DNA from: Bacilli bacterium
Lineage (GTDB): Bacteria > Bacillota_I > Bacilli_A > RF39 > UBA660
NCBI GenBank assembly: GCA_017410525.1
Contig: JAFQQQ010000010.1
Coordinates: 1 to 32,554, forward strand
Length of the DNA: 32,554 bases
Direction of reading: 5' to 3'
Below the pieces are notes generated by a model. That model had not been told where the DNA came from. It did no database searches and worked only from the letters and a program-made list of their open reading frames with translations. Every line of letters starts with the position of its first letter. Position 1 is the first letter of the stretch. Positions 32,334-32,427 of the stretch are shown here, piece by piece. The position numbers and the translations under genes were made by a program.

Positions 32334-32381
32334 AAAAAAGAGGAAACAAAAGCATTATTTAACTAATACTTTCATTTCCTC
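32334..32381 (-). terminator. Attenuator-like terminator before the recombinase
   Basis: On the minus strand: GAGGAAA (32381-32375), long imperfect inner stem, TTTCCTC (32346-32340), then T6 (32339-32334), ending only about 10 bases before the recombinase ribosome site. It would stop transcription before the recombinase. The 5' arm overlaps the last codons and stop of a 14-codon leader ORF, so translation of the leader should hinder hairpin formation. Confidence 0.7.
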
Positions 32382-32416
32382 ATAAAATTATAATTTAAAT
32401 TATAAATACTGCCCAT
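32372..32416 (-). CDS. Leader peptide of the recombinase gene
   Basis: 14 codons, MGSIYNLNYNFMRK, then TGA. A perfect AGGAGGT (32427-32421) precedes the ATG, far too good a site for chance. An in-frame stop just upstream shows that it is not the end of a longer gene. The last codons (ATG AGG AAA TGA) form the 5' arm of the terminator that precedes the recombinase. This is the layout of translation-controlled attenuators. The Tyr/Asn-rich codons might be where a ribosome slows, but no stalling motif is known. Confidence 0.6.
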   Translation of the reverse strand: MGSIYNLNYNFMRK

Positions 32417-32427
32417 TTGTACCTCCT

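Follow-up and report, generated by a model that had tools for sequence, protein, structure and literature searches.

In the E. coli pyrBI operon the terminator lies inside the leader ORF, and a ribosome close behind the polymerase prevents the hairpin from forming without any antiterminator; the leader gene there is long (135 bp) and polymerase pausing is UTP-sensitive. In the growth-rate attenuator of E. coli ampC, a ribosome on a very short leader, essentially a start-stop pair, disturbs the terminator, and expression follows translation capacity. The spacing between ribosome and terminator has been defined in E. coli, where a terminator is repressed when a ribosome sits at a stop codon no more than about 27 nt away, amino-acid attenuators separate the leader stop from the terminator by over 20 nt, and a terminator about 30 bp after the AUG was relieved by only about 10% on translation, the ribosome not having caught up (PMC4824070). 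The erm, vmlR and msrD leaders carry a short ORF upstream of a terminator or a sequestered ribosome site and work only if the ribosome stalls and the RNA can adopt a second fold, vmlR relying on an antiterminator (PMC9226507). Transcription attenuation with a leader is also tied to mobility in the Gram-positive element Tn916, where it controls tet(M) and later genes by read-through and is lifted by translation inhibitors, tetracycline among them (PMC9632896). The timing of movement of many integrative and mobilizable elements is decided by large serine recombinases, which also serve widely as genome-editing tools; how the expression of these enzymes is held low is poorly understood. No paper joining serine recombinases with leader-peptide attenuation was found in the literature searched, most subscription journals lying outside it.

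Here we examine a short leader ORF that runs into an intrinsic terminator directly upstream of a large serine recombinase gene. From the sequence comparisons below, we read it as a translation-gated attenuator of a mobile-element recombinase that would act by direct ribosome masking (probability roughly 0.6). The arrangement shares with pyrBI the terminator inside the leader ORF, but its leaders are far shorter, mostly 12-27 codons, and the gene is a recombinase. As for ampC, ribosome occupancy of a short leader would be set against a terminator, although the ORF in this case is a genuine one that extends into the arm. Unlike in Tn916, the attenuator is placed on the recombinase gene itself, and no resistance gene was identified separating that gene from the leader. 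Neither a stalling event nor an alternative fold of the erm, vmlR or msrD kind is seen.

Organisation of the recombinase leader

The window (the whole stretch of DNA analysed, 32,554 nt) is one entire contig (C9) of a 1.04-Mb Bacilli assembly. All features of the locus are on the minus strand.

32515-32554, minus strand: 3' end (...KLSELENYIRSIN*) of a small gene lying upstream and truncated at the contig boundary; candidate excisionase/directionality factor
32457-32485, minus strand: candidate sigma-70-type promoter, TATACA-17-TATTAT, score 9/12, by itself not above chance
32401-32456, minus strand: 5' leader before and around the leader start, with a small stem-loop (TGTATC...GGTACA) over the leader Shine-Dalgarno, weak in the window and like chance
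32421-32427, minus strand: leader Shine-Dalgarno AGGAGGT, 4 nt 5' of the leader ATG (32416-32414)
32372-32416, minus strand: leader ORF, ATG to TGA (32374-32372), 14 codons, MGSIYNLNYNFMRK; equivalent ORF in 71/113 relatives
32340-32381, minus strand: predicted terminator hairpin, 18 pairs (4 G-C); 5' arm 32381-32364, loop GTTAAA 32363-32358, 3' arm 32357-32340
32334-32339, minus strand: terminator T6 tract, from the sequence and a terminator scan
32324-32330, minus strand: recombinase Shine-Dalgarno AAAGGAG, present in nearly all aligned relatives
30399-32315, minus strand: large serine recombinase, 638 aa, Resolvase and Recombinase domains, integrase family phrog_95; ATG at 32315-32313

The gene product carries both domains by which, together with a length above 400 aa, we defined a large serine recombinase (PF00239, E 6e-34; PF07508, E 6e-19). 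Transcription in the window would start near 32450. The leader RNA folds better than 200 of 200 shuffles (z = -3.9), the terminator scan of the region found one terminator where 0.3 were expected in shuffles, and no Rfam family matched the window above its gathering score.

The layout agrees with the original prediction in that a perfect AGGAGGT site starts a 14-codon ORF, and an intrinsic terminator with T6 is followed at once by the recombinase ribosome site. The last codons and the stop had been equated with the 5' arm; they do overlap it, but cover only its outer 10 of 18 nt. A promoter between terminator and recombinase had been named as the case against attenuation. We found no promoter-like site between the hairpin and the recombinase in the window, and sites scoring at least 9/12 from the hairpin base onward occurred in just 3 of 71 relatives.

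Conservation of the terminator and the open leader frame

Relatives were drawn from the genus, from 386 genomes of the family (149 matching at E < 1e-60), from genome contigs (80 loci) and from 80 further stretches; removal of near-duplicates and distant members left 137 upstream regions. The named recombinase relatives are metagenome-assembled Bacilli/Tenericutes, mostly from the gut. Among 296 genomes drawn from the class, close relatives were confined to the bacterial family of the window (17 of 17 strong-match genomes). Plasmid and phage records held distant recombinases only (<60% identity), and no relatives were found in the viral collection.

A hairpin with a T-rich tract lies shortly 5' of the gene in 128 of the 137 non-redundant relatives. 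Stricter hairpin criteria retained 113, and 71 of these have a Shine-Dalgarno and ATG ORF reading into the hairpin, so the layout is conserved in homologous recombinase loci, a check that had been proposed with the prediction. Dinucleotide shuffles of the leader gave a mean of 4.3 and a maximum of 9 such ORFs (100 shuffles), which argues that the leader-terminator arrangement did not arise by chance. Similarly, 71 of 83 leaders with Shine-Dalgarno and ATG reach the arm, against about 15 predicted from base composition with relatedness not corrected; the compared sequences are related, and both tests overstate independence. The same pattern recurs, however, in several leader sequences unrelated to one another, and a paralogous recombinase in the same genome (G000:C1:132484-134202, 47% identical) shares this leader-terminator layout. 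Leader start codons lie 29-60 nt upstream of the arm. Together these comparisons demonstrate selection for a leader frame that stays open into the 5' arm.

In the window the leader ORF overlaps the terminator; among relatives the ORF overlaps the hairpin in 76/128, and the stop lies no more than 27 nt from the terminator in 82/128. These distances place the system with pyrBI rather than with trp, erm or vmlR. The remaining 46 of the 128 terminator-bearing relatives, about a third, have no leader reaching within 27 nt, and homologues without a leader ORF had been set down as evidence against the prediction, which on this point stands only in part. Three groups are conspicuous among the leaderless relatives. 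In one clade the promoter sits near the hairpin; in a second the ORF is replaced by a covarying 5' stem-loop (GGTAAC/GTTACC or GGATA/TATCC); a third has a short ORF that is broken (MFLWG). Mapped on a tree of weak resolution, the leader state switches about 20 times. Nine members lack the terminator, and in several of these the recombinase lies directly behind another gene. Across the sequences compared, the leader is thus common, recurrently lost or replaced, and not obligatory. The stem-loop clade (L015, L043, L123, L140, L166, L167, L168) also has a conserved AGTCTTACAAxGTAGTTT 5' of the terminator, and its stem-loop could possibly represent another kind of attenuator input.

These losses bear on the simplest alternative, a plain attenuator or insulator, in which the terminator keeps the recombinase low and constant and stops read-through from upstream while the leader ORF adds little. 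The terminator is indeed more widespread (128/137) than leaders that extend to it, hairpin and promoter survive in some clades that have lost the leader, and the early E. coli terminator described above gained only about 10% from translation. An incidental ORF would not, however, be expected to enter the arm about 17-fold more often than in shuffles or to show strong avoidance of stop codons, and we regard this alternative as unlikely, although it has to be taken seriously.

The leader peptide is unconstrained

The leader peptide has a pN/pS of 0.83 and its amino-acid use tracks base composition. The three reading frames through the hairpin are used by 31, 20 and 20 of the 71 leaders. No conserved regulatory codon run was found in the leaders, and the body of the ORF is unstructured. 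An antiterminator partner for the 5' arm was sought within the leader and none was found (duplex z = +0.29 over 71 leaders). The use of all three frames and the unconstrained peptide indicate that no specific stalling sequence is kept; what is kept, judging from these patterns, is the act of translation into the arm and not the peptide. A conserved leader peptide or set of stalling codons was accordingly rejected on the pN/pS, composition and frame data, and an amino-acid biosynthetic attenuator on the lack of a conserved codon run and the overlap of ORF and hairpin.

The same data weigh on a stall-responsive attenuator of the erm/vmlR type, in which a ribosome stalled by drug or starvation would favour an antiterminator fold and switch the recombinase on. 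A leader ORF and terminator do precede the gene, translation inhibitors relieve the attenuation in Tn916, and a ribosome stalled directly on the arm would likewise give read-through. But the leaders offer no alternative pairing for the 5' arm, of the kind on which vmlR depends, no peptide constraint and no single frame, making this quite an improbable explanation.

Promoters and the 5' stem-loop

Of the 71 relatives with the leader, 66 have a sigma-70-type promoter upstream of it that scores at least 10/12 (the mean is 10.5, versus 4.1 for shuffles), and the 9/12 candidate in the window occupies the equivalent position. Together with the few promoter-like sites from the hairpin base onward, this places the terminator between promoter and gene, as in an attenuator. 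TATAAT is over-represented within the leader ORFs, occurring in 33 where 12 would be expected and usually 14-19 nt upstream of the arm (window, 32404-32387); the 33 leaders come from few related leader families, with near-consensus variants in all frames. The motif could make the polymerase pause or act as an internal promoter, or its codons could simply be inherited. The internal promoter was rejected, since promoter-like sites in the leader are no more numerous than in shuffles, despite a 10/12 site in the window.

A stem-loop around the leader Shine-Dalgarno is common in relatives (mean z -1.3) and in 39 of 71 it ranks in the best tenth of shuffles. Its stability, together with the leaderless clade that has a covarying 5' stem-loop of its own, would suit a trans-acting RNA-binding protein or small RNA that controls leader translation through this element, the leader serving as a relay. 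Against such a factor, none was identified, Shine-Dalgarno accessibility is 0.41 compared with 0.46 in shuffles, and the window stem-loop is like chance; we give the idea slim odds. As the stem-loop is weak in the window and leaves the Shine-Dalgarno hardly less accessible than in shuffles, it was left out of the proposed mechanism.

The hairpin is selected as RNA

In an alignment of 34 diverse relatives, compensatory changes were observed at all 12 consensus hairpin pairs. The coding strand of this alignment holds 55 G-U cells and 14 A-C cells, an excess that indicates selection on the hairpin as coding-strand RNA and not as a DNA palindrome. A DNA site for recombinase binding, operator function or attachment that resembles a terminator by accident is highly improbable: a long, near-perfect inverted repeat with partly conserved arms does lie directly 5' of the gene, but the G-U excess, a T tract on one strand only, and element boundaries beyond the small upstream gene (beside spoVS or scpB) rather than at the hairpin all speak against it.

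A covariance model of the hairpin was specific. Its two best matches in the genome of the window are the two recombinase leaders (E 1.7e-10 and, for the window hairpin, 6e-6), followed by the reverse strand of the first hairpin and then by weak matches from 0.025 upward. Across 38 relatives, 14 of 15 distinct matches below 1e-4 precede a recombinase or its remnant, and one is unrelated. Those more distant serine recombinases that were examined do not have the hairpin. In the alignment fold the T tract pairs with the recombinase Shine-Dalgarno; this pairing was set aside as mainly a T run beside an A-rich ribosome site.

Separately, in L269 (about 1501-1650) and L271 (about 1501-1670) the hairpin and T tract stand before truncated or broken recombinase genes, and we take these loci to be remnants of lost elements.

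Proposed mechanism and direction of the response

From this arrangement we infer termination, its relief by ribosome masking, and an input signal with its sign, as follows. RNA polymerase would start at a promoter between the small upstream gene and the recombinase, transcribe a leader with a ribosome site and short ORF, and then run into the intrinsic terminator, which lies 20-40 nt ahead of the recombinase start. Unless prevented, the hairpin would form there and end transcription. If a ribosome reached the end of the ORF while the polymerase was still at the terminator, it would cover the 5' arm and block the hairpin, and the recombinase would be transcribed; arrival alone would matter, peptide and frame being irrelevant. 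Output is expected to be low and occasional, to rise with the rate of leader initiation or with a slower polymerase, and to fall when translation is blocked.

B. subtilis polymerase outruns ribosomes (PMC9226507). Taken with the slight relief of the early E. coli terminator, this makes a default-off state with rare read-through likely. By analogy with these systems, masking may be weak without a polymerase pause, which would help. The A-T-rich terminator stem, with its 4 G-C pairs, and the weaker promoter of the window (9/12) also count against the model.

Under direct masking with no antiterminator, a ribosome slowed before the arm would leave the terminator free to form. Translation inhibitors are therefore more likely to lower than to raise recombinase expression, although, given the Tn916 precedent, the direction should not be taken for granted. 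In a coupled system, termination increased when fusidic acid slowed elongation, according to a result cited in PMC4824070.

The original prediction was right in kind: translation-dependent attenuation is consistent with the leader-terminator overlap, the position between promoter and gene, and the conserved open frame, with the reservation that such a leader is missing from about a third of the relatives that have the terminator. Its suggestion that translational stress would turn mobility on is not supported, masking predicting the reverse in line with the cited fusidic acid result, with Tn916 as the counter-example. The likeness it drew to stall-sensing resistance leaders such as erm fails on the missing antiterminator pairing, the unconstrained peptide and the use of three frames. 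A stronger form of the masking model is possible but tentative: across the family, recombinase would be made only when a ribosome beats RNA polymerase on a leader indifferent to frame and peptide, and excision and integration would follow translation capacity and be silenced by translational stress.

Conserved across dozens of elements from uncultured gut Bacilli, a cis-acting gate that separates the promoter from its recombinase would allow a direct test of whether element mobility is coupled to host translation. As peptide and frame are both free, the design suggests that selection can act on a leader ORF solely for where it places the ribosome. Should this be confirmed, a search for open frames that enter terminators could recover such leaders with no need for a conserved peptide.

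Mobile-element context

The paralogous locus and a relative share a gene order of a chromosomal gene (spoVS or scpB), a small protein of 92-96 aa, promoter and leader, recombinase and a MobV-type relaxase, similar to that of integrative and mobilizable elements (PMC5357655). In L231 and L232 a MobV (Mob_Pre) relaxase comes after the recombinase, which matches streptococcal elements with a serine integrase and MobV relaxase (PMC5357655); the recombinase clade described here differs in occurring at high similarity only in the gut Bacilli family of the window. No attenuator described for such serine-integrase/MobV elements was found in the literature searched. No relaxase is present 3' of the recombinase in the window.

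Full-length relatives of the small upstream protein are 92-97 aa (L231, L232), and the protein weakly matches the Tn916 excisionase Xis (E 0.006, below the curated cut-off). On this likeness, the attenuator may separate a recombinase from its directionality factor. Ahead of each recombinase of these elements lies a related protein of 92-125 aa (23-38% identical), encoded at L231:13418-13696, L231:6863-7147, L232:3813-4103, L232:10405-10698 and L232:14238-14615, and in the window represented by the 3' end at 32515-32554; these small proteins, one of them weakly Xis-like, are candidate recombination directionality factors.

In L232 (G001:C9:103001-122500), about 12 kb holds three co-oriented large serine recombinase genes that belong to different subgroups; the leader-terminator precedes two of them but not the third. 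Upstream of the start codon of a third-type recombinase, L003, L020 and L039 contain repeated AGTGAGGTATATAGTG-like motifs, perhaps protein-binding or recombination sites. Elsewhere in the window, positions 1430-2482 hold a release factor 2-like ORF starting MIYGGHFDPEVKKKR, whose 5' part probably lies in another frame, as with the usual programmed frameshift of prfB.
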